Origin: Salinadaptatus halalkaliphilus
GTDB lineage: Archaea > Halobacteriota > Halobacteria > Halobacteriales > Natrialbaceae
Assembly: GCF_006543045.1 (NCBI RefSeq)
Contig: NZ_RBZW01000076.1
Coordinates: 242,820-306,819, forward strand
Direction of reading: 5' to 3'
DNA length: 64,000 bases
Part shown: piece by piece, positions 45,455-58,032 of the stretch
Position numbering within the stretch: the first letter of the stretch is position 1
How the letters are laid out: the number at the start of each line of letters is the position of its first letter
Made by a program: the position numbers and the translations under genes
The notes under the pieces: model-generated
The model's database searches: none
The model's input: the letters and a program-made list of their open reading frames with translations, nothing else
What the model was told of the DNA's origin: nothing

Positions 45455-46567
45455 ATGAACAACATCAGGACGGGATTGAGCTACGGAGACGTGCTGCTGG
45501 TGCCACAGCGGTCGCCGGTCGACAGCCGTGACGATGTCGACCTCGAGACGCAACTGACGCCGACTATCGACCTCGAGACGCCACTCGTGTCGGCGGCGAT
45601 GGACACGGTGACGGAGGCCGAGCTGGCGATTGCGCTGGGGGAAGCCGGCGGCATCGGGACGATCCATCGGTTCCTGACGGTCGAGGAGCAGGCCGACGAA
45701 GTCGCGACCGTGGCTGACGCCGGCGTCCCCGTCGCCGCTGCCGTCGGAATCGACGAGGACTACGTCGCCCGTACCGCCGCCGTCCTCGAGGCGGGCGCGA
45801 CGGCCGTCGTCGTCGACGTCGCCCACGGGCATCTCGAGGCGACGCTCGAGGCTACGGCGACGATTCGCGAGACGTTTCCCGACTGCGAACTCGTCGTCGG
45901 AAACGTGGCGACGCCCGAAGGGGTCGAGGATCTCGCCGCGGCAGGTGCCGACGGCGTGAAAGTCGGCATCGGACCGGGCTCACACTGCACGACGCGGAAG
46001 GTTGCGGGTGCGGGCGTACCGCAAGTGACCGCGATCGACGACTGTGCCGAGGTAGCGACCGAACTCGGCGTCACGATCGTCGCCGACGGCGGCATCCGAA
46101 CGTCCGGCGACGCGGTGAAGGCGCTGATGGCCGGTGCGGATACGGTCATGCTCGGGAGTCTCTTCGCCGGCACCGAGGAGGCACCGAGCGAGGTCGTCGA
46201 AGTCGACGGCGTCCGGTACAAACGTTCACGCGGGATGGCGACGACCGCCGCCGCCGAAGCGCGTTCGGACAAGGGCGAAAACGTCCGCGCCGACGAAGGA
46301 GTCGAGGGGCTGACCCCGTACAAAGGTCCCGTCGCCGACGTCGCGGCGTCGTTCCACGCGGGCATCAAGTCCGGCCTCTCCTACTGTGGCGGCCACACGA
46401 TCCCGACGGCTCGAGAGCGTGCGGAATTTGTCCGCGTCGCGCCGAGTGCACAGGAACGAGAAGGCGCCCACACCGACAACGAGTGGGAGACGGTCAGCGT
46501 CGACAGCACGGACAAGGCCGGCGTCGGGACAGAGACAGCCGACACAGCCGACGCGGCGGACGACTAA
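45455..46567 (+). CDS. IMP dehydrogenase / GMP reductase family protein without CBS domains
   Basis: 370 residues, (beta/alpha)8 barrel. Motifs: [14 protein letters not shown] (7-20), [13 protein letters not shown], the catalytic loop [17 protein letters not shown] (active cysteine in HCTTR) and [11 protein letters not shown]; the flap KRSRGM follows. Full IMPDHs carry two CBS domains after about residue 100; here none is inserted, so it could be a CBS-less IMPDH or GMP reductase. The C-terminal 30 residues are acidic low complexity. The TATA-like CTTTATGC is centred 33 bases upstream. Confidence 0.85.
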
Positions 46568-46614
46568 CCGTTCGCAACCAAATCCATATCTGTCGTCCGA
46601 GCGGAGATGGTGTG

Positions 46615-47153
46615 ATGAAACTCGTCGACGGACAGGTTGCGGTTATCACGGGCGCAGCGTCAGGAATCGGCCGTACAACTGCAGAGACGGTTGCGGACCA
46701 CGGCGCATCGGTCGTCGTCGCCGACGCCGACGGCGCCGCGGCGACGGCGAGACGATCGAGGACGCCGGCGGCGACGCGACGGTCGTTCGGACGGACGTCG
46801 CCGATCCCGACGATGTCGAGGAAATGGTCGAAACCGCCGTCGAGACGTACGGCGGACTGGACATCCTCTACAACAACGCGGCCATCGAAGGCCCCGTCGC
46901 GTCACTCGCCGAGTACGCCGAGGACGGCATTCGAGCCAACGCTATCGCGCCGGGGATCGTCAGAACCGAGATGATCGAACGGACGATCGAAGAGCACCCG
47001 GAGATGGAAGCACAGTTCGAGGAGACGGAGCCGATGCCGGGACTGGCCGATCCCGAGGAGATCGCACACGCCGTGGTCTTTCTTGGCTCGAACCTCTCCT
47101 CGCGGGTCACCGGCGTAACGTTACCCGTCGACGGCGGCTATCTCGCACAGTAG
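46615..47153 (+). pseudogene. Broken short-chain dehydrogenase/reductase
   Basis: The start MKLVDGQVAVITGAASGIGRT with its NAD-binding GxxxGxG is in one frame, and the rest (ETIEDAGGDATVV to the end) is in another, so a frameshift lies around 46735-46745. In addition SLAEYAEDGIRANAIAPG joins the residue-95 region directly to the post-catalytic region. The expected 80-90 residues in between, including the catalytic Ser and YxxxK, are missing. The coding length is 539 bases instead of about 750. Both lesions would inactivate it, so this is a pseudogene unless assembly errors created them. Confidence 0.75.
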
Positions 47154-47198
47154 TCGCTCGCAACGTCTGGGGTGGAAAAACGAGTCGATACGACGGTC

Positions 47199-47564
47199 TT
47201 ACGGCTCTCGTCGAACGTTCGACCAGATGCCGAGCGCGCGGTTCGGCGATCGGTCGACGGTCGCCCGGAGTTCACGATCGTCGTCGAGATCGACCGTGAC
47301 TCGATCGAAGTCGGTCACGTACCGGGCTTTCTGATAGCGGCCACGCCGAACGCCGGTCGTTTCGGTGACCAGGGACGCCTCGGTCAGTCGATCGAGCTTG
47401 CGATAGGTCGTCGACTGGGGCTGGTCCGTCGCCTCGGCGATTTCGTCGACGGTCATCGGCTCCTCGAGGACGGCGACGATCCGTCGACAGCCGGCGTCGT
47501 TCAACACGCCGACGACGGTCTCGAGATCTTGCTCGTCGGCAGGCGAGGAACGCTCGAGTGCCAT
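47199..47564 (-). CDS. Winged helix-turn-helix regulator (ArsR-like)
   Basis: 121 residues. The winged helix spans about 14-85, with the recognition region EATDQPQSTTYRKLDRL and a wing containing RGRYQKARYV. No metal-binding cysteines are evident. The AT-rich TATA-like CTTAATAG (about 47620) is centred about 55 bases upstream of the ATG, so this transcript appears to have a leader of about 30 bases. It faces the broken SDR and is divergent from cobO-like. Confidence 0.8.
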   Translation of the reverse strand: MALERSSPADEQDLETVVGVLNDAGCRRIVAVLEEPMTVDEIAEATDQPQSTTYRKLDRLTEASLVTETTGVRRGRYQKARYVTDFDRVTVDLDDDRELRATVDRSPNRALGIWSNVRREP

Positions 47565-47696
47565 TGTGATGCACCCACGTTAGGAGTGGAGACTCAAGAC
47601 ACGTTTGGTCATCTATTAAGAATATTACATTTTTTGGCCGCTCAACGGGATCGAACGACCGGTTCGATTATAGGCTCGGCCCCAGTCGATGTGACA

Positions 47697-48401
47697 ATGA
47701 GCGACGAGCGATCATCTGCCGACCTGACACCCGAATCGACGCGCGAGCAGACGCCAGGCGAGGGGCGGGCGCCGGCCGCCGAGCGGATCGAACCGACCGC
47801 ACCCGAGGCGTTCGGCCTGGTACAGGTCTGGTGGGGTGATGGGAAAGGAAAGACGACGGCGACTCTCGGCATGGGGATGCGCGCAGCCGGCCACGGCCAT
47901 CGCGTCCACGTCTTGCAGTTCATGAAAGGCGGTGCGGCGAGCGTCGACGCCGTCCGCGGCGAGTACAACGCGATGGCGGTGTTGCCGGGAATGAGCTACG
48001 AAAACCTCGGTCACTACGGCTGGCACGGGATGGCCGACGGCAGCGAAGATGCCGATCACGAGGCCCAGGCACAGGCCGGTCTCGAGCGCGCCCACGAACT
48101 GCTCGAGGCGGCGTCCGCTACCGACCTCGAGTCGCCGATCGATCTCGACGCTCCGCCCGAAGCAGGCGTCCACATGCTGATACTCGACGAGATTCTCTAC
48201 GCGGCCGATCGAGGTCTGGTTAGCGAAGACGACGTGCTCGACCTGCTCGAGGCAAAACCGGCGAATCTCGAGTGTGTCCTCTCGGGGAGCCACACCGAAC
48301 CCTCGTATCTGGCGGGTCGAGCGGACCTCATTACGAACGTCCGCAAAGTGGCCCACCCGATCGACGACGGGCAACGTGCCAGACGCGGTACGGAGTTTTG
48401 A
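47697..48401 (+). CDS. cobO: Cob(I)alamin adenosyltransferase (CobO/BtuR family)
   Basis: 234 residues. The N-terminal 40 residues are an acidic extension; the Walker A-like GDGKGKTT is at 47-54, followed by the family features LQFMKGG and the Walker B-like LILDEILYA. It transfers the adenosyl group of ATP to cob(I)yrinic acid a,c-diamide or cobalamin. A TATA-like ATTATA (47667-47672) is centred about 27 bases before the ATG, so the transcript is leaderless. It is divergent from the wHTH gene. Confidence 0.9.
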   Translation: MSDERSSADLTPESTREQTPGEGRAPAAERIEPTAPEAFGLVQVWWGDGKGKTTATLGMGMRAAGHGHRVHVLQFMKGGAASVDAVRGEYNAMAVLPGMSYENLGHYGWHGMADGSEDADHEAQAQAGLERAHELLEAASATDLESPIDLDAPPEAGVHMLILDEILYAADRGLVSEDDVLDLLEAKPANLECVLSGSHTEPSYLAGRADLITNVRKVAHPIDDGQRARRGTEF

Positions 48402-48468
48402 GGCGGATCGGGGTTTCCGGTCGCCGGTACACGCACAAATCCCGTTTGCGGTCGCACGGGGAGTGACT

Positions 48469-48528
48469 GATACGGATTCCTGTACCGATTTGCCGGCCCA
48501 GCCGCCGTCCGGGTCGCGGCTGGGCCGG
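48469..48528 (+). repeat. Head-plus-hairpin intergenic repeat, copy 2
   Basis: The head (48469-48496) reads GATACGGATTC then CTGTACCGATTTGCCGG and matches copy 1 at 24 of 28 positions. It runs into a perfect hairpin: CCGGCCCAGCCG (48493-48504), a 12-base loop, CGGCTGGGCCGG (48517-48528). It lies between the convergent genes cobO and the 48557 gene, where it could terminate both. Confidence 0.65.
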
Positions 48529-48556
48529 AACTGACGGACGGGAAACCGTATGACGA

Positions 48557-48943
48557 CTACGTGTCTGCCATCGCCCGCTCGAAAACCGCCTCGGCGAAGT
48601 CAACGATCGACGTCGGTAACTCGACCTCCGTCGAGATGACGAGTCCACCGGTTTCGCTCAACGGGAGGAAAATGAGCAGTGCGTCTTCGAAGCGCCGAAC
48701 GGAGTAGTGAAACTCACCGATATCGTAGAGCTCCTCGAAGAAGTGGACGTTCAGCAGGTTCGACATCCGTTCGACGCTCATGCGTTCGAACTGCGATTCC
48801 GTGTAGAGTCCCGCAACGTCGTCGCGAATGTACAACGTGTCGTACTCGCTGCGCTCGAAGTAATCGACCGCGCGAAGCTGCTCGCCGAGTTCGTCGCGTG
48901 CGAACGCGACGACGCCCTCGAGATCGGGTTCAGTTTCGGCCAT
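48557..48943 (-). CDS. Conserved haloarchaeal protein of unknown function
   Basis: 128 residues from the ATG at 48943, chosen because GAGGAGA lies about eight bases upstream; in-frame ATG codons at 48970 and earlier have no TATA box 26 bases upstream. The sequence is a soluble alpha/beta protein with no catalytic motif that I recognise (features: RAVDYFERSEYDTLYIRDDV, DALLIFLPL). It has the look of a small sensory or roadblock-like domain, but that is speculation. It is divergent from the CinA-like gene. Confidence 0.7.
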   Translation of the reverse strand: MAETEPDLEGVVAFARDELGEQLRAVDYFERSEYDTLYIRDDVAGLYTESQFERMSVERMSNLLNVHFFEELYDIGEFHYSVRRFEDALLIFLPLSETGGLVISTEVELPTSIVDFAEAVFERAMADT

Positions 48944-49047
48944 ACGAGCATCTCCTCGGGCCGAACTCATTACGTTGACGCTGTCAGGACCACGAGTGGG
49001 CAACTGCGGGAGAAGGAGACTTGACCTCTCGAACCCAACGTCGCTGT

Positions 49048-49731
49048 ATGAACGTTGCGGTCGTCACGGTCGGAGACGAACTGCTCGCCGGACGGACGAC
49101 GGATACGAACGCCACGTGGCTCTGTGAGCAACTGGCCGACCGGGGCGTCACCGTCGAACGGGTGACGACGGTCCCCGACCGAGTCGGCGACATCGCCCGG
49201 GTCGTCAACGAGTATCGCGCGGCCTACGACGCCGTGATCGTCACCGGCGGACTCGGTCCCACCCACGACGACGTGACGATGGACGGCGTCGCCGCCGCAC
49301 TCGGCCGGCCGATGACCGAACACGACGACGCACTCGCATGGCTCGAAGACCACGGCTACTCCCGTGACGATCTGACGACGGGGACTGCCGAGTTGCCAGC
49401 CGGCGGTCGGGCGCTGCACAACGACGTCGGCGTCGCCCCCGGAGTCACACTCGAGGGCGTCTATGTCCTGCCCGGCGTCCCCGCCGAAATGAAGGCTATG
49501 TTCGAGCGAATCGAATCGGATTTTTCCGGCCAGCCAGTCTACCGCGAGGTCGTCGTCGCCGACGAACCCGAGAGCGCGTTGCTCGATCGTCTCACGACGC
49601 TACGCAAGCGCTACGATGTCGACGTCGGCAGCTATCCCGGCGACTCGGTTCGGATTACGCTCGAGAGCACCGACGAGGAAACCGTCGTCGCGGCCGCGGC
49701 GTGGCTTCGCGACCGCGTCGATCGGGAGTAG
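49048..49731 (+). CDS. CinA-like molybdopterin-binding domain protein
   Basis: 227 residues, MoCF-biosynthesis/CinA N-terminal (COG1058) domain. Motifs: VGDELLAGRTTDTNATWL (about 8-25), VTGGLGPTHDDVT (about 66-78) and a PGVPAEMKAM region. Only the first domain of CinA is present; there is no C-terminal deamidase. Such single-domain homologues have been linked to nicotinamide-nucleotide or ADP-ribose hydrolysis, uncertain here. The start is the ATG at 49048. Confidence 0.82.
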   Translation: MNVAVVTVGDELLAGRTTDTNATWLCEQLADRGVTVERVTTVPDRVGDIARVVNEYRAAYDAVIVTGGLGPTHDDVTMDGVAAALGRPMTEHDDALAWLEDHGYSRDDLTTGTAELPAGGRALHNDVGVAPGVTLEGVYVLPGVPAEMKAMFERIESDFSGQPVYREVVVADEPESALLDRLTTLRKRYDVDVGSYPGDSVRITLESTDEETVVAAAAWLRDRVDRE

Positions 49732-49761
49732 CGAGATTACGTGGCATCTCTCGAGGGAAGA

Positions 49762-50118
49762 CTAACCGGCGACTTCGTTCGCTTCGCGGCGAGCCCGCAT
49801 CGTCGTGACGGCGATGTAGGCGCCGCCGGCGACGAGCAACACCATTCCACCCAGTACCTGTAGCCCACTCGAGGCGAACGCGACGAGTGCGAGGCCGACG
49901 CCCGCGGCCGCGTGTGCAACAGCGAAATCCCGGCGACCGTAGGCACCATGGAGGAGAGCGACCGCAGCGAACGTTCCAGCGAACGCCAACAGGCCGAGGT
50001 TCCTGGCATCGAAGCCAAGCAGCGCCTCGTCGACGAAGATTCCGTAGCCATAGAGGGCGAACGCGAGTATCGATCCGGCGCCGATCGTCTGCTCCTGGAC
50101 GTCAACCTGGGTCGCCAT
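49762..50118 (-). CDS. Small four-helix membrane protein
   Basis: 118 residues. After a short polar N-terminus (MATQVDVQEQTIGAG) there are four hydrophobic segments of about 18 residues each, then a basic tail MRARREANEVAG. No family is recognised. The start ATG at 50118 was chosen because the earlier part of the open frame overlaps the zinc-ribbon gene. It follows that gene on the same strand with a 49-base gap and could be cotranscribed. Confidence 0.65.
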   Translation of the reverse strand: MATQVDVQEQTIGAGSILAFALYGYGIFVDEALLGFDARNLGLLAFAGTFAAVALLHGAYGRRDFAVAHAAAGVGLALVAFASSGLQVLGGMVLLVAGGAYIAVTTMRARREANEVAG

Positions 50119-50167
50119 TCGCCCGGTCGTTCGACCGCCCGACGCAAAGCCCTGCCGTTCTCGATTA

Positions 50168-50692
50168 TTACAGCGTTCGGTACTGGCCACGGCTCTCGCT
50201 AACCGCACCGCGCCGAACGAGTTTCTCGAGTGCCGTTCGGACGTACTCGGCCGACACGCCGTGCTCGCTGGCATAATCGATGACCTCGTCTTCGGTCGGT
50301 CGATCGAGGTCCGCGAGCGCCCGTTCGACGATTTCCTTCTTGCTGCCGGTACGGCTGGGTCCGCGCGGATCGCGGTCACCGGCGGTCTCGAGCTCGTCCA
50401 CGTCGAGTCCCGACGCCTCGAGGTACGCTGTGTCGTCGACGACGCCGTCTTCGACGGTCGACTCGAGGTCGGCGAAGGAATCGACCGCCGCGAACGCCTC
50501 GCCTTCGCCCTGGCGACTCGCGAGCATCGACGCACGGACCTCGCGAGCGTGGTCGACGTCGTCGGTCTCGACGAACTTCTTCCGGCGCTCGTAGGATCGG
50601 CGCGATCCACAGCGAGGGCACTGGGTTGTCTCCGAGCGCCCTTCGAGCAGCCAGAGGTGTGAACACTCGTTACAGCCGACGACGGCGTACAT
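50168..50692 (-). CDS. Zinc-ribbon and winged-helix protein (DUF5817-like)
   Basis: 174 residues. A zinc ribbon uses C7, C10, C25 and C28 (CNEC and CPRC), and the C-terminal 60 residues form a small winged helix (TEDEVIDYASEHGVSAEYVR). This pattern matches haloarchaeal DUF5817-like proteins annotated near replication or transcription genes, but the role is unknown. A TATA-like GAACTATCC (about 50715-50726) is centred 26-28 bases before the ATG at 50692, so it is leaderless. Confidence 0.78.
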   Translation of the reverse strand: MYAVVGCNECSHLWLLEGRSETTQCPRCGSRRSYERRKKFVETDDVDHAREVRASMLASRQGEGEAFAAVDSFADLESTVEDGVVDDTAYLEASGLDVDELETAGDRDPRGPSRTGSKKEIVERALADLDRPTEDEVIDYASEHGVSAEYVRTALEKLVRRGAVSESRGQYRTL

Positions 50693-50804
50693 GTCTCGTC
50701 TCGAGGTGAGCGGGCAGGATAGTTCAAGCTTGGGCAAGCGGGGCGAAAGTGGGCTGCAGCGATCGGCCTGTGGCTCTATGTATCGTCGCCTCCTCTCAAG
50801 GCGT

Positions 50805-51143
50805 ATGGAACGCGTGTCGCTGTCCGAGTGCGAACCGACGGAAGCCGCCGAGGGCGTCCACCTGGCGCTGCTGGCCGGAGCGGATGCGATGAATATCCAA
50901 CACTTCGAGATCGAATCCGGCGCGGTCGTTGACGAACACAGTCATCCCCACGAGCAGACGGGATTCATCTACGAGGGCGAACTGGTGTTTCTGACCGACG
51001 GTGCGGAAATCGTCTGCGGGCCCGGTGACGGCTACGCGATTCCAGGCGACCAGCCCCACGCCGTCGAGAACCGCGGCGACGAACCCGCTCGGGGTGTCGA
51101 CATCTTCAGCCCGCCTCGAGCAAACCCTGCCTGGCAGGAGTGA
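50805..51143 (+). CDS. Cupin-domain protein
   Basis: 112 residues, a single cupin barrel. The metal-site motif EHSHPHEQTGFIYEGE (about 45-60) and a second motif GDGYAIPGDQPHAVENRG support metal binding. It could be a dioxygenase, isomerase or small-molecule sensor. The start is the ATG at 50805. Its stop codon TGA overlaps the beginning of copy 3 of the head-plus-hairpin repeat. Confidence 0.85.
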   Translation: MERVSLSECEPTEAAEGVHLALLAGADAMNIQHFEIESGAVVDEHSHPHEQTGFIYEGELVFLTDGAEIVCGPGDGYAIPGDQPHAVENRGDEPARGVDIFSPPRANPAWQE

Positions 51144-51200
51144 GGCGGTCTGCTGTAACGATGTAGCGGCGAAACCGCGACCCGTCTGCGGTTTCGGCAG
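51142..51200 (+). repeat. Head-plus-hairpin intergenic repeat, copy 3
   Basis: The head (51142-51169) starts GAGGCGGTCTG and contains CTGTAACGATGTAGCGG, matching copy 1 at about 20 of 28 positions. The hairpin that follows pairs CGAAACCGC (51170-51178) with GCGGTTTCG (51188-51196). It lies between two convergent genes, the cupin and the CPBP protease. The first base of the head is inside the cupin stop codon. Confidence 0.55.
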
Positions 51201-51267
51201 TAACGACTTCCAGCAGTCCGAACGACACTCACCATCGCCGGATCCGATCGAGTGCCACAGGGAACGC

Positions 51268-51984
51268 TCACCAGGCCGTCGGGAGGACAGCAAGCGCGAC
51301 GAGGACGGCCCAGCAGTTGACCAGCAGGTGCATCAGCCAGGCACCCACGAGGTTGTCGTACCACAGACGGAGAGCGGTCAGTAGCGTGCCCAACACCGCC
51401 GTCGCGATGACGCTCGAGAGCCCGGCGACGAAGACGTGCATGAGCCCGAACAGCAGTATCGAGAGAGCCGCCGCGACGAGAATTCCATAGCCGCGACTGA
51501 TCAGATGTCCCAACAGCAGTCCGCGAAAGAGGATCTCCTCGACGACGGGCGCAACGAGCAACGATCCGACTGCCAGACTCACCAGTCCAAGCGTCGTCGC
51601 GGCCGTCCCCGGGTCGTGTGGGGCGACGCCGAGTGTCCGTGCCAGTCGATTGAACGCGATCAGAAAGGCGATCCCGACGACCGTCGCGAGAAGGGACGCA
51701 CCGATCTCGTTTCGTGATGGACGACGGAAAACTGCACTCGCACGCCACGTCGCTCGGTCCCAGCGCCAGTAGAGAAATCCGACGACGGCGACGCCGGCGA
51801 TCCCCAAGGGCAGGTTCGCGAACTGCGGCGGAAAGCCGGGGTCGTCGCCCATCGCGAGGGTATAGCCAGCCGCGATAGTGACGACGACGGCGACGACGGG
51901 AACGAACGGCACGACCAGCACCCACGGCAGGGATCGATCCGCGAGCGGTTCGCTCGTCGCCTCGAGACGCGCTCGTCTTGACAT
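51268..51984 (-). CDS. CPBP-family intramembrane metalloprotease
   Basis: 238 residues, about eight membrane segments. The CPBP (Abi/CAAX) motif EEILFRGLL (motif 1) and the downstream GLMHVFVAG and HLLVNCW histidine and asparagine segments are present, so a glutamate and histidines form the metal site. Such proteases process prenylated or peptide substrates in the membrane. The TATA-like GTTATATG (52009-52016) lies about 29 bases before the ATG at 51984, which I prefer to the in-frame GTG and ATG at 52008 and 52002. Confidence 0.82.
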   Translation of the reverse strand: MSRRARLEATSEPLADRSLPWVLVVPFVPVVAVVVTIAAGYTLAMGDDPGFPPQFANLPLGIAGVAVVGFLYWRWDRATWRASAVFRRPSRNEIGASLLATVVGIAFLIAFNRLARTLGVAPHDPGTAATTLGLVSLAVGSLLVAPVVEEILFRGLLLGHLISRGYGILVAAALSILLFGLMHVFVAGLSSVIATAVLGTLLTALRLWYDNLVGAWLMHLLVNCWAVLVALAVLPTAW

Positions 51985-52091
51985 GTCTGGGAGTGTCTGC
52001 ATTGTCACACATATAACTACTCGTCGATGCTGTCGGGCCCGTTACTGACGAATACCACGGAGTTATATAGTTCAGTTTACAAGGGCGTCCG

Positions 52092-53462
52092 ATGGCAACA
52101 CAGACGGAATCGACGAGCGGTACAGTTGGGCGGATGGGGGCCTTCGTCAGGCGGTTGGGGCCCACCTGGCTCGCCGGTGCGATCGCCGCGGGGCCGGCGA
52201 CGATGGTGAGCCTGTTGGTCGCGGGCGCGAGCTTCGGCTACACACTGTTGTGGGTCGTCGTCCTCTCGGCCGTCCTTGGAACCGTCGGGCAGTATCTCGC
52301 GATGCGACTCGGGATACTCACCGAGGCGGGAATCGTCTCGGTCGTCGAAGACCACCTCGGCTCGTTCTGGGCGTGGGTACTCGTCGTCGACGTCGTCCTC
52401 GCGGCGGGGCTCGCACAGCTCGCGATCATGCTAACCCTCGCCGATGTCAGCGCGACCATCGTGGGTAACGCGGGCATCGGTATCGCGATGCTGGCGGACC
52501 CGCGCTTCTGGGGTGTCACCTGGGCCGTGATCCTCGCCCTCGGACTGGCCGGGGGCGGTTACCGAGTGGCCGAAATCGGTGCGAAACTACTGGTCTCGCT
52601 GGTCGTGCTCGCGTTCGTCGTCTCGGCGTTCGTCGTCCCGATCGAACCGGCCCAGGCCGTCGGCGGACTCGTCCCCGAGATGCCGGGCGTCGGCGGTGCG
52701 GTCGTCGCGGCCGGCGTCCTCGGCGGCGCCGTCCACATCACGCTGCTGACGATGCAGAGCTACACGATGCGTGCACGCGGCTGGACCGACTCCGACCGCG
52801 ACATCGCCACGTTCGACGTCGTGAGTTCGATGCTCGTCGCCTTCGGCGTATTCAGTCTCGCCGTCTTCCTCGTCGCCGCGAGCGTCCTGCCGGAGGTCGT
52901 CACCGATCCCGCAGCGATCGACGAGATCCAGGCCGCCGAGGCGCTCGTCCCGGTCGCCGGCGAGCACGCGATGTGGATCTTCCTGCTCGGTCTCTGGGGT
53001 GCGGCCGTCTCCACGCTCGGGGGCAACACCATCGTCCCGCCATACCTGCTGGCCGACAAACTCGGCTGGGAGCAGTCCGTCGACGATCCTCGATACCGGG
53101 CCGCGATCGTCGTCGTCGCGTTGGCCTCGGCGATCGGCGCGTTCCTCGGCGCTGCGTTCTTTCAGGTACTCGTGCTCGTACTGGCGTTCGGCCTCGTCGG
53201 GACGCCCTTCGCACTCGCACTCATTCTCTACCTGCTGAACGATCCCGACGTCGTTCCCGAGACAAACTCTCTCCTGCTGAATCTCGGCGGCCTCGTCCTC
53301 TTCGGCGTCGCCGCCGTCCTCGCCGGCGAGTTCGTCCTCGAGGAACTCGAGACCGTCACCGAGCCCGTCTCGGCGTTCGTCGTCGCCTTCGCCGCGGTGA
53401 TGGCGCTCGCGATCGTCGGCCTCCTCGTCAAGTACGTTCGCGAGCGGATGCTCGAGGCCTGA
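52092..53462 (+). CDS. NRAMP-like membrane transporter with degenerate metal site
   Basis: 456 residues, eleven or so membrane segments in the LeuT/NRAMP fold. The first segment retains the pattern GPTWLAGAIAAGPATMVSLL, but the invariant DPGN of true NRAMPs appears here as GPAT. In segment 6 the MPH of the metal site also appears lost (GGAVHITLLTMQS). The ligand positions (Asp, Asn, Met) therefore seem to be Gly, Thr and His, and transport of Mn/Fe by the standard mechanism is doubtful; Mg, another cation or an organic substrate is possible. A TATA box (TTATATAG, around 52063-52070) is centred about 26 bases before the ATG. Confidence 0.8.
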   Translation: MATQTESTSGTVGRMGAFVRRLGPTWLAGAIAAGPATMVSLLVAGASFGYTLLWVVVLSAVLGTVGQYLAMRLGILTEAGIVSVVEDHLGSFWAWVLVVDVVLAAGLAQLAIMLTLADVSATIVGNAGIGIAMLADPRFWGVTWAVILALGLAGGGYRVAEIGAKLLVSLVVLAFVVSAFVVPIEPAQAVGGLVPEMPGVGGAVVAAGVLGGAVHITLLTMQSYTMRARGWTDSDRDIATFDVVSSMLVAFGVFSLAVFLVAASVLPEVVTDPAAIDEIQAAEALVPVAGEHAMWIFLLGLWGAAVSTLGGNTIVPPYLLADKLGWEQSVDDPRYRAAIVVVALASAIGAFLGAAFFQVLVLVLAFGLVGTPFALALILYLLNDPDVVPETNSLLLNLGGLVLFGVAAVLAGEFVLEELETVTEPVSAFVVAFAAVMALAIVGLLVKYVRERMLEA

Positions 53463-53549
53463 TCATCGACGTTCGTCGGTACCACCTACCCCATTGCGGG
53501 GTCGTCGCTCGAGCAAACTTTCTTGCCAGTCGAGAGCGATTGTCACGCC

Positions 53550-54284
53550 ATGTCAACACTCGAGAACGACGTCGTCATCGTGACGGGCGCGAGCCGCGGC
53601 CTCGGTCGTGCGATGGTCGACCGCTTCGCAGACGAGGGGGCCCGCGTCGTGCTCACCGCTCGAGACGAGTCCCGGATGGAAGACATCGCCGCGGAACTAC
53701 CGAGCGACTCGCTCGTCGTCCCCGCCGACGTTCGCGATAGCGACGCGGTCGAACGGGTGATCGACCGCACTATCGAGAAATTTGGACACATCGATACCCT
53801 CGTCAACAACGCAGGTGTGAGCCAACTCGGGATGCACGACTCGCGAAACCACATCGTCGACATCGCCGACGACGACTGGGATACGATCCTCGAGGTCAAC
53901 CTCAAAGGCGTCTTCCTCTTTACGCGGGCGGCCCTGCCACATATGTACGAGCAAGGACGGGGCAACGTCGTCAACATCTCCTCGGGGCTCGGCCGGCGTG
54001 CGGCGCCGGGAGCCGCCGCGTACGTGAGCTCGAAGTGGGGGCTGGAGGGACTCACGCAGACGGCCGCCCTCGAGAGCGACGAATACGGCGTCAACGCCAA
54101 CGCCCTCGATCCCGGCGGTCGGGTCGATACCGACATCTGGGCGCACCTCCCCGACGAGGAACGCGAACAGATCCTCGATCCGGACGTAATGAACGACGCC
54201 GCCGTCCTGCTCGCCGCGCAGGGTCCCGATGGCGTCACCGGGGAGTCGATGACCGCCACGGAATGGGAAAAACGGCTTGGATGA
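53550..54284 (+). CDS. Short-chain dehydrogenase/reductase
   Basis: 244 residues. The NAD(P)-binding TGASRGLGRA is at 12-21, NNAG follows at about 87-90, the catalytic Ser is in ISSGLG and the pair YxxxK in YVSSK (about 163-167). Length and motifs fit classical SDRs that reduce 3-oxoacyl, sugar or steroid-like substrates; the substrate cannot be inferred. The ATG at 53550 was chosen over the open frame at 53523 because the Rossmann strand begins directly after it. It is cotranscribed with nothing obvious; 117 bases later the mptA gene begins. Confidence 0.88.
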   Translation: MSTLENDVVIVTGASRGLGRAMVDRFADEGARVVLTARDESRMEDIAAELPSDSLVVPADVRDSDAVERVIDRTIEKFGHIDTLVNNAGVSQLGMHDSRNHIVDIADDDWDTILEVNLKGVFLFTRAALPHMYEQGRGNVVNISSGLGRRAAPGAAAYVSSKWGLEGLTQTAALESDEYGVNANALDPGGRVDTDIWAHLPDEEREQILDPDVMNDAAVLLAAQGPDGVTGESMTATEWEKRLG

Positions 54285-54401
54285 GATCGGGCTCACTCTC
54301 TCGAGTTTCGACAGCGGGCGCTCGATCGACGTACATCCGAGATCGACGCCGATACCGTCGGTTCCGAAACCCCTATTCGCCTGCTGTCCCGAATGCGGAC
54401 A

Positions 54402-55334
54402 ATGAGTCACCAGCTTCCGGACGTGCAGGCAACGTCGCCCGACGTCACCGTCGGTCTGAGTCAGGTCGGCGTCACTGGCGTCGAGAAACTCGTCAAGATC
54501 GCCCGCGAGGGCAAGCGCCCGCTCGTCTTCACTGCCGAATTCGAGGTCTTCGTCGACCTCCCCGCCTGGCGAAAAGGTGCGGACATGAGTCGCAACATGG
54601 AGGTCATCGACGAAATTCTCGAGGATACCACCCGCGAGGAGGCCTACCACGTCGAAGAGGTCTGTGGCGACGCCGCCGAGCGTCTCCTCGAGAAACACGA
54701 GTACACCTCGAAAGCCGAAGTGTCGATGGAAGCCGAGTTCATGCGCCGCGAACAGACCCCCGCCAGCGACCGCGAGACCCAACATACCGTCGACATCGTC
54801 GCCTCGGCGACGGCGACCGACGAGGGAACCCGCGAGGAGATCGGCGCGACCGTCACCGGGATGACCGTCTGTCCGTGTTCCCAGGGCATGTCCGCCGCGC
54901 GGGCGAAAGAGACCCTCGAGGATCTGGAGGTCGACGAGGAGACCATTACTGAGTTCCTCGAGGAAGTGCCACAGCCGGGTCACTCCCAGCGGGGCCACGC
55001 GACGCTGACCGTCGAGGCCGGCGGCGATCCGGAGGTCGACCTGAACGACGTGATCGACATCGCCCGCGACGCGATGAGCGCGCGAATCTACAACCTCGCG
55101 AAGCGACCCGACGAGGACCACATGACCTACGCGGCCCACTCCGACGCGAAGTTCGTCGAGGACTGCGTGCGCTCGATGGCCGAAGGCGTCGTCGAGGAGT
55201 TCGATCATCTCCCGGAAGACGCCGTCATCACGATGAAACAGTCCAACGACGAGTCGATCCACCAGCACAACGCCCACGCCGAGCGCGTCGTCGAGATGGC
55301 GACGCTTCGCGACGAACTGAACGGCGAACACTAA
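54402..55334 (+). CDS. mptA: GTP cyclohydrolase MptA
   Basis: 310 residues, the archaeal GTP cyclohydrolase IB/FolE2-like enzyme that converts GTP to 7,8-dihydroneopterin 2',3'-cyclic phosphate for tetrahydromethanopterin or folate synthesis in archaea. Motifs: [16 protein letters not shown] near the N-terminus, the metal cysteine in [12 protein letters not shown] (about 148-159) and HSQRGHA (about 192-198). The start is the ATG at 54402, preferred over 54393 because the second Met precedes the conserved sequence. Confidence 0.9.
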
Positions 55335-55369
55335 CAACCCGTCGTTCGCGTTTTTGAGGCCGGTCTCGG

Positions 55370-56128
55370 CTACCGACGCCGGAGGGCGACGATTGCGACA
55401 CAGAGCGCGACGACCGCGACGCCACCGCCGAAGCCGGACAGCCCGTCCGCAACACCATCTGTGTGCTCGGAGTCGCCGTCTTCACCACCCTCGAGTTCGC
55501 TATCGCTGTGTGGATGCTGGCTGTCGCCGTCGCCAACAGCCGTCTCGTCGCCGATACCCGACTCGACGGAGAGTTCGTTCGGGAGGTCCTCGCCAGTCCA
55601 CGTCGCGACGTTGCCCGAGACCTCGTCGGCGTTCGTATCGGTGACCGGACCAGGCATCCTCACGTGATGTGTCGCCGTCGTCTCCTGTGGGCCGGCAGCC
55701 GGCGCGACGACCTCGAGTTCCTCGTAGACGACGGTTTCACCTTCCCTGTATACGTCCAGCCGATCGACGGCATCGGTCTCGAGGTCCTCGAAGACTATCG
55801 TAAGCTGGTGACCACCCTCGAGATCTTCCCTCGAGACCGAGACCGTCCCGATCCACGGCTCGTCCGCATACAGCGACTCGTACCAGTCGGTGACGTCGTC
55901 GTAGCCGGCCTGCTGGGCACTCATCTCGAGCACGTCGTACCCTGCATCGTCGACGGTCACGACGCTTTCGACCGACTCGATCGCTCCCTCGTCGGTGACC
56001 ACCGTCTCGCTCGTCGTCTCGGAGCCGGTCGATCCGGAACCGACTACGGTTCCACACGAAGCGATCACTAGCACGACAACCATCACGAACCCAATAGCTC
56101 CGATCGACCCCGACGCGTCGACGTTCAT
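55370..56128 (-). CDS. Hypothetical membrane-anchored lipoprotein
   Basis: 252 residues from the ATG at 56128. The N-terminal hydrophobic segment ends with IASCG, a lipobox variant (Cys about 25), followed by a Gly/Ser/Thr/Glu-rich linker and an acidic domain. The C-terminal end is a Gly-rich stretch, a hydrophobic helix GVAVVALCVAIVAL and a basic RRR tail, resembling a weak PGF-CTERM sorting signal. The middle has no recognised fold. A TATA-like GTTTATATC (56150-56158) is centred 26 bases before the ATG. Convergent with mptA. Family unknown. Confidence 0.65.
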   Translation of the reverse strand: MNVDASGSIGAIGFVMVVVLVIASCGTVVGSGSTGSETTSETVVTDEGAIESVESVVTVDDAGYDVLEMSAQQAGYDDVTDWYESLYADEPWIGTVSVSREDLEGGHQLTIVFEDLETDAVDRLDVYREGETVVYEELEVVAPAAGPQETTATHHVRMPGPVTDTNADEVSGNVATWTGEDLPNELSVESGIGDETAVGDGDSQHPHSDSELEGGEDGDSEHTDGVADGLSGFGGGVAVVALCVAIVALRRR

Positions 56129-56230
56129 ACGACGGTTCGCCAATCTATCGGATATAAACTCTCGCTCGAACGACGCGTGTGTTTCGCTCGATTTCAGCCG
56201 TCGCTCGTCGCGATGCTCCGCGATCGTGTA

Positions 56231-56340
56231 TTGACGTCGGCAGAAAGCGCCCGGAGCGGGATTTGAACCCGGCAGAGACGGTCCGGGCGTGCGGCGCTTC
56301 GCGCCGTTCCGGGCGTGCGACTCTTTGTTTTCAAATCCCT
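56231..56340 (-). repeat. tRNA-Asp-derived 110-base repeat, copy A
   Basis: It shares about 105 of 110 bases with copy B (57484-57593). On the minus strand it contains, at 56248-56288, a complete acceptor and T-arm of tRNA-Asp: GCCCGGA, nine bases, the T-arm with TTCAAAT loop, TCCGGGC and discriminator G, without D-arm or anticodon arm. A second TCCGGGCGTGCG follows at 56308 around a GCGC-TTC-GCGC hairpin. It is likely a recombination relic rather than a functional tRNA. Confidence 0.7.
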
Positions 56341-56413
56341 CGTCGGCGTTTCGCTGACGCCGCTACTCCTTCGTCGTTACACTCCTCACTCGTAGGTTGG
56401 CGTCAGCAGAAAG

Positions 56414-56486
56414 CGCCCGGAGCGGGATTTGAACCCGCGTCACAACCGTGACAGGGTTGTATGATGGGCCACTACACCATCCGGGC
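56414..56486 (-). tRNA. tRNA-Asp (GUC), copy 1
   Basis: 73 bases. The acceptor stem GCCCGGA/TCCGGGC is complete with discriminator G, the anticodon stem CAACC/GGTTG frames the loop CTGTCAC (anticodon GTC), and the T-arm is GCGGG-TTCAAAT-CCCGC. It is identical to copy 2 and shares the upstream bases CGGGAAACGATGTGGT and a TATA-like CCTTAATAC. Its 3' trailer (TTTCTGCTGACGCC) is shared with repeat copies A and B but not with tRNA copy 2. Confidence 0.97.
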
Positions 56487-56513
56487 TTACCACATCGTTT
56501 CCCGGTCGAAGTA

Positions 56514-56720
56514 TTAAGGGTTGTGTTCTCGTCGTCTCGAGTGGCCTGCTAACTTCTCACAGCACTGGCAGTACCGGGCCCGCCGCTCGAGTCGGCATTT
56601 CATCCGTTCCATATCAGTTGTCACTCGACGCGACGCGGCCTGATAGGGATTATCGTCGGAGTTCATAGATTTCCCGGTCCGGGATCGAAACACGGTATCA
56701 ATCCCTGCGAGGCGACACAT
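56514..56720 (-). CDS. Possible small cysteine-containing protein
   Basis: 68 residues from the ATG at 56720; an alternative start at 56666 would give 50. It has a CQCC cluster near the C-terminus and many Arg, and no recognised family. It lies in the island between the two tRNA-Asp genes, partly inside a 14-base inverted repeat, and overlaps the tRNA-Asp1 promoter region at its 3' end. A weak TATA-like GTATTCAT is about 26 bases upstream. It may not be expressed. Confidence 0.3.
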   Translation of the reverse strand: MCRLAGIDTVFRSRTGKSMNSDDNPYQAASRRVTTDMERMKCRLERRARYCQCCEKLAGHSRRREHNP

Positions 56721-56984
56721 CCGGCTGGCTACGATAATCCCTATGAATACGTGGTTTCGTCGCCTAACTCGGTCTCGAACTGATTCACCAGCGACTGCAA
56801 TTCCTCGGCGGCATATGACGATTATTTGAGATTCGTTGCGATCGCATCTCCCCGCGAGCGGCCTCCGTCGTTCCGTCGTCCTCGAGCGGGCGGCTCTCTA
56901 TAGCCGGCTACCACTCGAGGTCGGTGTCTGCTCGGTTTCCGCGACTACTCGAGAAATGAACGCTCAATTCTGGCCCGGTAGTTT

Positions 56985-57194
56985 TTATCGCTTTTGGCCA
57001 CTCTGGTTAAAAAACGTTTCCAGTGCCATCATTGCCCCTGCGTACGATGCGGCAATCACAGCAGCGAGGAGCAACAGAACGAGGAGGGACGTAAAACTGA
57101 ACAGAATGTAAAGGGACCAGTACGCAGCTATGACGGCCATAAGGAACACTACTGCAAGGAACGGCATGAAGTAGGACGGAATCCTAGCTCCCAT
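56985..57194 (-). CDS. Small two-helix membrane protein in the tRNA-flanked island
   Basis: 69 residues, strongly hydrophobic with two or three membrane segments (FMPFLAVVFLMAVIAAY, YILFSFTSLLVLLLLAAVIAA) and a short polar end NQSGQKR. Composition is less GC-rich than neighbours. The TATA-like TTATACATT (57217-57225, minus strand) is centred about 27 bases before the ATG at 57194, so it would be leaderless. A second ATG at 57167 is possible. Unknown function; small hydrophobic proteins in mobile islands are often toxins or holin-like, which is speculation. Confidence 0.5.
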   Translation of the reverse strand: MGARIPSYFMPFLAVVFLMAVIAAYWSLYILFSFTSLLVLLLLAAVIAASYAGAMMALETFFNQSGQKR

Positions 57195-57265
57195 GATATT
57201 ATAATATTCTGAGACGTAATGTATAATTTTTGGTCCCTGGGGTTTCAGGGTTATCGAATGGCTAA

Positions 57266-57317
57266 TTCACTGAGTTAAACGTGGCACAAGCGAAGCCACC
57301 GTTCAGGACTCAGTGAA
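57266..57317. repeat. Stem-loop with 10-base arms
   Basis: TTCACTGAGT (57266-57275) pairs with ACTCAGTGAA (57308-57317), and inside it GTGGC (57281-57285) pairs with GCCAC (57295-57299). The structure lies between the small membrane protein promoter and repeat copy B. It could be a terminator, an RNA or an element end. Confidence 0.45.
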
Positions 57318-57483
57318 CAATATAACTCGTTCACAGACGATGAGACAACTTCCGAGAAATCGCCACAAGATGTGGCGTCTACAAAAGCAAATATGCCGTA
57401 AGACAACAAATCCAACGCTGGATAGTGATTCACCACGGCCCTCAAGTTCAACCCTCGCTCGTCTCTCCGCTTCTCGCTCGTAG

Positions 57484-57593
57484 TTGGCGTCAGCAGAAAG
57501 CGCCCGGAGCGGGATTTGAACCCGGCAGAGACGGTCCGGGCATGCGGCGCTTCGCGCCGTTCCGGGCATTCGACTCTTTGTTTTCAAATCCCT
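57484..57593 (-). repeat. tRNA-Asp-derived 110-base repeat, copy B
   Basis: The same 110-base unit as copy A with five differences; the minihelix is at 57501-57541 and the second TCCGGGC at 57561. It is followed after seven bases by the inverted repeat at 57601-57651 that lies directly against tRNA-Asp copy 2. The first 41 bases match the 3' end plus trailer of tRNA-Asp copy 1. Confidence 0.7.
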
Positions 57594-57600
57594 GTTGAGG

Positions 57601-57651
57601 TTTTTCACAGACGAGCGACTCGCTCCGCTCGTCGTATTAGTCTGTGAAAAA
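57601..57651. repeat. Inverted repeat at the 3' end of tRNA-Asp copy 2
   Basis: TTTTTCACAGAC (57601-57612) and GTCTGTGAAAAA (57640-57651) are perfect 12-base arms; GACGAGCG and CGCTCGTC pair inside. In the tRNA direction it begins with a T-run just after the discriminator base, so it would terminate or trim the tRNA transcript. Confidence 0.55.
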
Positions 57652-57724
57652 CGCCCGGAGCGGGATTTGAACCCGCGTCACAACCGTGACAGGGTTGTAT
57701 GATGGGCCACTACACCATCCGGGC
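57652..57724 (-). tRNA. tRNA-Asp (GUC), copy 2
   Basis: 73 bases, identical in sequence to copy 1: anticodon GTC in loop CTGTCAC, complete acceptor stem and discriminator G. The upstream CGGGAAACGATGTGGTGT is nearly the same as in copy 1, with a TATA-like CCTTAAGAC about 33 bases before the 5' end. The trailer differs, starting with five T then a hairpin. Confidence 0.97.
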
Positions 57725-58032
57725 TTACACCACATCGTTTCCCGCTGGTAGTCTTAAGGCTTTCCAATCGATCGGCCTTTGGTACGGGGAATCGGGACAC
57801 GACGATGCCCTCGAGTCCGCCCCTGCATGTCAGTATATGCCACGACCCACAAGGAATTTAACCGAGAGTCGGGAACTGTGACGTGTGATCGGCTCTCCCG
57901 GTCAGGGTCGCCCGGTCGGTTAGCCCTGCTTCTGACTCGAGTTAGTAACGCTTAACTGCGTCCCACCGGTAGGAGACTGTAGTATCTCGTGACAGCCACT
58001 TCTCTCCCCATAGCCCACAGGCACACCGACAC
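57725..58032. other. 308-base region between tRNA-Asp 2 and rpoH
   Basis: It holds the tRNA-Asp 2 promoter (minus strand) on its left side and the promoter region of the polymerase operon (plus strand) on its right. TATA-like AATTTAACC (about 57856) and CTTAACT (about 57950) are candidates; a leader of about 60 bases or more before rpoH is implied. No gene is seen. Confidence 0.55.

Follow-up and report, generated by a model that had tools for sequence, protein, structure and literature searches.

The window, by which we mean the whole 64-kb stretch of DNA analysed here (64,000 nucleotides), contains a gene for a 456-residue transporter of the NRAMP family, preceded by a proposed operator and a TATA-like box (Table 1). 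The protein matches the Pfam Nramp family (PF01566) at 218 bits against a cut-off of 29.8 (E 2.3e-64), and scores far below the cut-offs of the NCBIfam MntH/Nramp models (64 vs. 430, 45.7 vs. 272.5, and 26.2 vs. 50 bits).

Table 1. Features of the transporter gene and its promoter (positions in the window).
Feature	Position	Strand	Basis
Proposed thiamine-regulon (ThiR-type) operator, ATACCACGGAGTTATA; same kind at thi4	52052..52067	+	Pattern and matrix scans
TATA-like box overlapping the operator 3' half, 23-29 nt before the ATG	52063..52069	+	Sequence reading, inference
NRAMP-fold (PF01566) transporter gene, 456 aa, ATG start	52092..53462	+	ORF, Pfam, alignments, model
Codons G34-P35-A36-T37, broken TM1, place of canonical DPGN	52191..52202	+	Alignments, conservation, model helix break
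Codons G212-A-V-H215-I-T217, TM6, place of canonical (A/C)xxMPH	52725..52742	+	Alignments, conservation

In phmmer alignments with B. fragilis Nramp (10ky) and D. radiodurans MntH (8e6h, 8e5s), the TM1 motif DPGN aligns with G34-P35-A36-T37, and the TM6 motif (A/C)xxM-P-H with G212-A-V-H215-I216-T217. A MAFFT alignment with a haloarchaeal protein that carries DPGN and MPH (L089) gives the identical register. The metal-site substitutions are Asp to Gly34, Asn to Thr37, and Met to His215, while the Ala contributing a backbone carbonyl is replaced by Gly212 and the TM6 His by Thr217. Canonical NRAMP proteins also have a Gln in TM10 with a role of its own, and Leu364 stands at its position (by eye in the phmmer alignments). 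An earlier note made on this DNA had read DPGN as changed to GPAT and Met-Pro-His as changed to His-Ile-Thr, with all three metal ligands lost, and both alignments agree with it. A canonical metal site in another register is ruled out, as two structures and L089 concur on a single register and no other Asp, Asn or Met is placed in the site.

G34, P35, A36, and H215 are identical in all 82 aligned orthologs (the query plus 81 loci, excluding L042/L044, which are the query itself, L113, whose gene is broken across two frames, and duplicate rows), and T217 in 81 of them. Position 37 is T or S in the MAFFT alignment, and Q109, N312, Y157, E161, K165, S246, S255, S307, and T308 are likewise invariant. 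Given this invariance of G34, P35, A36, and H215, the changed site is, as judged from the sequences, a maintained one, and neither decay nor chance nor sequence error. Since an invariant His occupies the Met position, one possible soft ligand may be left.

The AF2 model (built with 20 sequences) has a pTM of 0.81 and a mean pLDDT of 79.4, with TM1 broken at residues 28-34 and residues 25-32 at pLDDT under 50. Foldseek and VIA-align both rank NRAMP-family structures first. The best 26 VIA-align rows are all NRAMP-family structures or models with Z between 30 and 40, among them D. radiodurans MntH (40), BfraNramp (40), EleNRMT (39), and the YcsG integrative model 9a52 (36), and amino-acid and other APC carriers follow at Z 29 and below. 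The predicted model and the VIA-align rows thus place the protein in the NRAMP/LeuT fold, which upholds the earlier view that the fold is retained.

As given in the part of PMC8806188 consulted, canonical proteins carry DxxN in TM1 with A/CxxM in TM6, NRMT proteins DxxG-TxxA/T, and NRAT proteins DxxN-AxxT. The present protein has GxxT and GxxH instead of the canonical signature, with G34 and H215 kept in the 82 orthologs, and on the same grounds we rejected identities as an NRMT Mg2+ transporter (compared with the EleNRMT segment) and as an NRAT (Al3+) transporter. Like the NRMT transporters (EleNRMT, 7qia/7qji), the protein is an outgroup without the canonical metal site and is close in fold (Z 39); it differs from them in its TM1 and TM6 motifs and scores 38 bits only by phmmer. 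With canonical Slc11/NRAMP (MntH, DMT1; DraNramp, BfraNramp) it shares PF01566, the broken TM1, and VIA-align Z 38-40 over about 370 residues. It differs from these at about 22% identity, in the absence of their DxxN-(A/C)xxM site and TM6 His, and in its regulon, which is the thiamine regulon here. A PF01566 fold lacking the canonical metal motif places the protein among the "Nramp-related" outgroups, so that ligand loss alone is not new. It is already known for the paraphyletic "Nramp-related" proteins, described in the consulted part of PMC12873925 as lacking the residues for metal and proton; PMC10606218 distinguishes orphan-type and NRMT-type outgroups.

The main rival reading is that the protein supplies metal for thiamine enzymes. 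In that case, a divalent metal importer (for Fe2+, Mn2+ or Mg2+) would have been recruited to the thiamine regulon, and would use His215 and backbone carbonyls to feed metal to Thi4/ThiC or Mg2+ to thiamine-diphosphate enzymes. The PF01566 membership and the invariant soft ligand His215 are in its favor, as are two outgroup proteins, since the consulted passages report YcsG as a Mn2+ importer (PMC10448178) and judge the A. capsulatum protein to carry mainly Mn2+ (PMC4072509). A site that has no Asp, Asn or Met and departs from the canonical, NRAT, and NRMT signatures alike speaks against it, and the gene context discussed below bears on it further.

Orthologs at about 52-87% identity were found in 64 of the 145 sampled Halobacteria genomes (in one of these, G140, the gene is split over two frames), including 23 of 37 sampled genomes of the window's own family, which we take as Natrialbaceae because the named relatives belong there. 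Among 294 sampled genomes of the phylum, no match outside the order is above 30% identity. In a midpoint-rooted tree of 45 rows, which was used solely to see whether the transporter clade holds together and in which branches are long and the placing of the long rows L086 and Bfra is unsafe, this clade is coherent (24 rows, 97/84) and separate from the canonical group and from three further haloarchaeal ones. Both alignment and tree put the other haloarchaeal PF01566 proteins in separate groups with different TM1/TM6 motifs. Odd motif pairs are seen there, namely GPGS/TTFS, GPGT/TTVVGYN, and GSGS/TTALWPN (the groups comprise L075 and L085; L076-L084; and L087, L088, and L090-L093).

Within the window's family, the regions upstream of the orthologs have in common a block resembling GAATACCACGGAGTTATAT some 40 nt ahead of the ATG; in the window it lies at 52050-52068 and overlaps the TATA-like box. 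In the 4.52-Mb genome, the 16-bp pattern ATACCACNNAGTNNTA is matched without mismatch at two places, one in the transporter promoter and the other at the ATG of thi4 (thiazole synthase); the reversed pattern has no such match. Only exact matches stand out, since allowing one mismatch gives eight genome matches vs. five for the reversed pattern. The 61 genomes analysed from the family have 42 exact matches in all, vs. nine for the reversed pattern, and 36 of the 42 precede the transporter gene (18), thi4 (16), thiC (1), or a tenA-like gene (1). The other six are at other genes (L190, L191, L192, L196, L208, and L209), and the L191 and L192 sites appear to represent one location in two genomes. 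Separately, a one-mismatch palindromic site, ATACCACCGAGTGGTG, was seen at L153:1502, about 80 bp before a gene that we take from its sequence to be nadA-like.

Thi4 is present in 131 of the 145 genomes, and a site of the operator kind is found at the thi4 start codon in the 30 of them whose thi4 loci were analysed (weak in a few), as scored with a matrix built from those same 30 sites. This matrix, trained solely on the 30 thi4 promoters, has its best position in the 64-kb window at 52051 (18.5 bits; the next scores 11.6). It reaches at least 10 bits in 64 of 94 ortholog upstream regions, which are related sequences, vs. 4 of 1385 random stretches from the same loci and 18 of 1410 shuffles. 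Among the 30 regions that score under 10 bits, several belong to genes lying behind other genes in an operon; eight loci of genus g24 have a half-site only. In the window's genome, the matrix scores 17.8 bits at the ATG of thiC and nowhere reaches 11 bits at tenA (L157). With an operator common to the transporter gene, thi4, and thiC, membership of the transporter gene in the thiamine regulon is strongly supported at the sequence level. The TATA box under the operator would fit a leaderless transcript repressed by occlusion. A search of window positions 46000-58000 with Rfam at gathering scores for a TPP or other riboswitch upstream returned two tRNAs only.

We infer that ThiR binds the proposed operator. 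An archaeal thiamine regulon under ThiR was reportedly described in 2017 in papers by Rodionov and by Hwang. In line with such a regulon, an HTH-ThiN gene lies beside the transporter gene in several genomes. According to a secondary source, ThiR balances thiamine biosynthesis and transport (PMC12029414).

The presence of the transporter also follows that of certain thiamine genes. By Fisher tests on gene presence, which ignore shared ancestry, TenA is found in 54 of 64 genomes with the transporter vs. 37 of 81 without (p 2e-6; 145 genomes), and outside the window's family in 35 of 41 vs. 28 of 67 (p 7e-6). The corresponding counts are 50 of 64 vs. 42 of 81 for ThiC (p 0.0016) and 62 of 64 vs. 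69 of 81 for the weakly associated Thi4 (p 0.022). ThiM shows no association in the same 145 genomes (33 of 64 vs. 36 of 81, p 0.41). Absence of ThiC was considered as the driver and rejected, as ThiC is missing in 14 of the 64 genomes with the transporter yet also in 39 of the 81 without. Because 39 of the 53 ThiC-less genomes are without the transporter and 50 of the 64 genomes with it have ThiC, the transporter is not the general HMP route.

Two genomes, G001 and G054, contain the transporter and lack both ThiC and Thi4, and therefore need both halves of thiamine or the whole molecule. They fit a cargo of thiamine itself or of its thiazole moiety, which is a sub-case of organic cargo. The regulon evidence fits such a cargo equally well, and thi4, of the thiazole branch, is the commonest regulon partner. 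The transporter nevertheless tracks TenA and not ThiM and has TenA and ThiDN as neighbors, which makes thiamine or thiazole a rather unlikely cargo, although the TenA point is not decisive given the 37 of 81 transporter-less genomes that also have TenA. For the same reasons, namely presence tracking TenA rather than ThiM and the TenA and ThiDN neighbors, the pyrimidine is favored over the thiazole.

A tblastn search over 96 loci found TenA, ThiDN, or ThiR within 5 kb of the transporter gene in 16 of 41 gene-bearing genomes outside the window's family. In the 44 loci L001-L041, L096, L124, and L148, nearly all from the window's own family and some with short flanks, the same search found no thiamine gene beside the transporter, so the case in that family rests on the operator. 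Gene coordinates put TenA no more than 5 kb from the transporter in 10 of the 54 genomes with both genes, against a chance estimate of 0.3-0.7% per genome. On ten annotated plasmid stretches the transporter is always annotated as a "divalent metal cation transporter", and four of the ten (L114, L117, L118, and L121) have a tenA, thiD, or HTH-ThiN (ThiR-type) gene nearby. A Pfam scan of 139 neighboring ORFs from 21 loci, not chosen by function, returned TENA_THI-4 most often (7), followed by SSF (6), ThiN (4), and PhyH (4), when the commonest 25 of 147 families were considered. These ORFs were drawn from 181 in 25 greedily picked loci, of which one had no ORF; manual pruning removed the 14 ORFs of L094, L116, and L119 together with 28 individual ORFs, most of them short or in outer positions. 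Flanks of about 2 kb to either side of other haloarchaeal PF01566 proteins (20 places) showed no TenA, ThiN, SSF, or P-loop neighbor, and in four of these 20 control places the operator matrix gives a score of 10 to 14 bits somewhere within the 5 kb.

The neighborhoods also weigh on the import of metal for thiamine enzymes. Some annotated neighbors would suit it, i.e., a metal-dependent regulator (L117), an "iron ABC transporter permease" (L118), and a superoxide dismutase (L114), and a gene of the PhyH type, which belongs to an Fe(II)-dioxygenase family, adjoins the transporter in 4 of the 21 scanned loci. Opposed to this are the association with TenA (a pyrimidine-salvage enzyme), thiDN, and thiR, and the lack of any metal-regulator family among the commonest 25 of the 147 neighbor families. 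Taken together with the changed site, we regard a metal importer as quite unlikely.

A P-loop protein of about 185 residues, with the motifs GPSNxGKT and VFVNDATIPFQ (e.g., L117:8302-8850, L118:8274-8840, and L121:8301-8846), is encoded in 31 of the 145 genomes, and in all 31 directly downstream of the transporter gene (within about 60 bp). Pfam and PDB profile searches with it gave nothing convincing. This NTPase is perhaps a cargo-trapping kinase. It could also be a signaling ATPase, in which case the transporter might be an NRAMP-fold thiamine-responsive sensor, or else an exporter, rather than an importer; membership in a regulon is silent on direction. Such a role seems very improbable, since the predicted model retains a carrier's helical core and its broken TM1, and since the P-loop partner, found in the window's family solely in G104 and the plasmid copy L036, is not needed.

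Other genes recur in these clusters. An SSF symporter, annotated as a "sodium:proline symporter" where annotation exists, is present in the clusters of L097, L104, L108, L112, L115, L121, L128, and L130; it could be the precursor carrier in place of the NRAMP-fold protein, or may be a second one. In L096, L101, L102, L124, L127, and L142, the gene immediately preceding the transporter gene, or divergent from it, encodes a PhyH-type dioxygenase, which possibly serves some further step of pyrimidine salvage. Matches (L040, L129) to a PhyH-labeled query from L129, a RibD-like reductase by eye, were not counted.

The operator and the thiamine-salvage neighbors argue for an organic solute rather than another ion as cargo. 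The earlier suggestion that this branch may transport a different ion or solute thus stands as to a changed substrate, and of its two alternatives the ion gives way to the organic solute. We consider the protein to be probably a thiamine-regulon importer of an organic thiamine-pathway compound with an NRAMP/LeuT fold. Its fold, its changed site, and its thiamine-regulon membership are well supported at the level of sequence analysis, and we infer which way transport runs, what is carried, and which ion is coupled to it. An organic cargo is strongly indicated; the evidence points less strongly to the pyrimidine moiety of thiamine, which we propose tentatively, at a little under an even chance.

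The proposed importer would be a secondary transporter in which the DxxN-(A/C)xxM metal site has been swapped for GxxT-GxxH. When thiamine is short, a repressor, most likely the HTH-ThiN regulator ThiR, would leave the operator over the TATA box, and the transporter gene would then be expressed together with thi4 and thiC. The organic thiamine-pathway compound would be imported by alternating access around the broken TM1 and TM6. Its likeliest identity would be HMP itself or an aminopyrimidine formed by breakdown, which TenA would convert to HMP, and the imported pyrimidine would be phosphorylated by ThiDN. It is nearly as likely as not that this haloarchaeal NRAMP branch has turned into an importer of the vitamin B1 pyrimidine, often with a dedicated P-loop NTPase.

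A precedent for organic cargo in the NRAMP family may exist in the PxpT/YcsG group (TCDB 2.A.55), which resembles the present transporter, as far as the sources consulted go, in being encoded with genes for the use of an organic compound. The partner pathway there is that of 5-oxoproline and here that of thiamine. C. glutamicum requires PxpT to use 5-oxoproline, as stated in the part of PMC13274462 consulted. The precedent is disputed because YcsG, a homolog of PxpT, is the protein reported above as a Mn2+ importer. In the titles and abstracts returned by searches of openly licensed papers, we found no claim of thiamine or HMP transport by an NRAMP protein.

By annotation the transporter reads as a gene of metal homeostasis, and its regulon and context place it in vitamin B1 supply; this thiamine-regulon context may be the new part beyond the known loss of ligands. 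If true, the proposed function would supply a transport step of haloarchaeal thiamine salvage, and would offer a tractable case of an NRAMP metal site adapting to an organic substrate. How that can happen is an open question for the "Nramp-related" proteins and a matter of dispute for YcsG/PxpT. If the cargo is the pyrimidine in particular, a branch of the NRAMP family would clearly have exchanged metal ions for an organic compound, and the exchange would be linked to a defined regulon.

The neighbors of the transporter gene in the window, which encode a CPBP protease, an SDR, and MptA, were considered as partners and rejected for low or no recurrence (tblastn, 96 loci). Behind the transporter gene, a close SDR (74-76%) recurs in six other loci, CPBP adjoins it in one, and MptA in none. 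Elsewhere in the window, a short-chain dehydrogenase gene at 46483-47153 appears, by eye, to be divided between two frames and to lack its middle part, and is probably a pseudogene. The two tRNA genes lie about 1.2 kb apart at 56414-56486 and 57652-57724 (-), each scoring 62.4 bits in Rfam.
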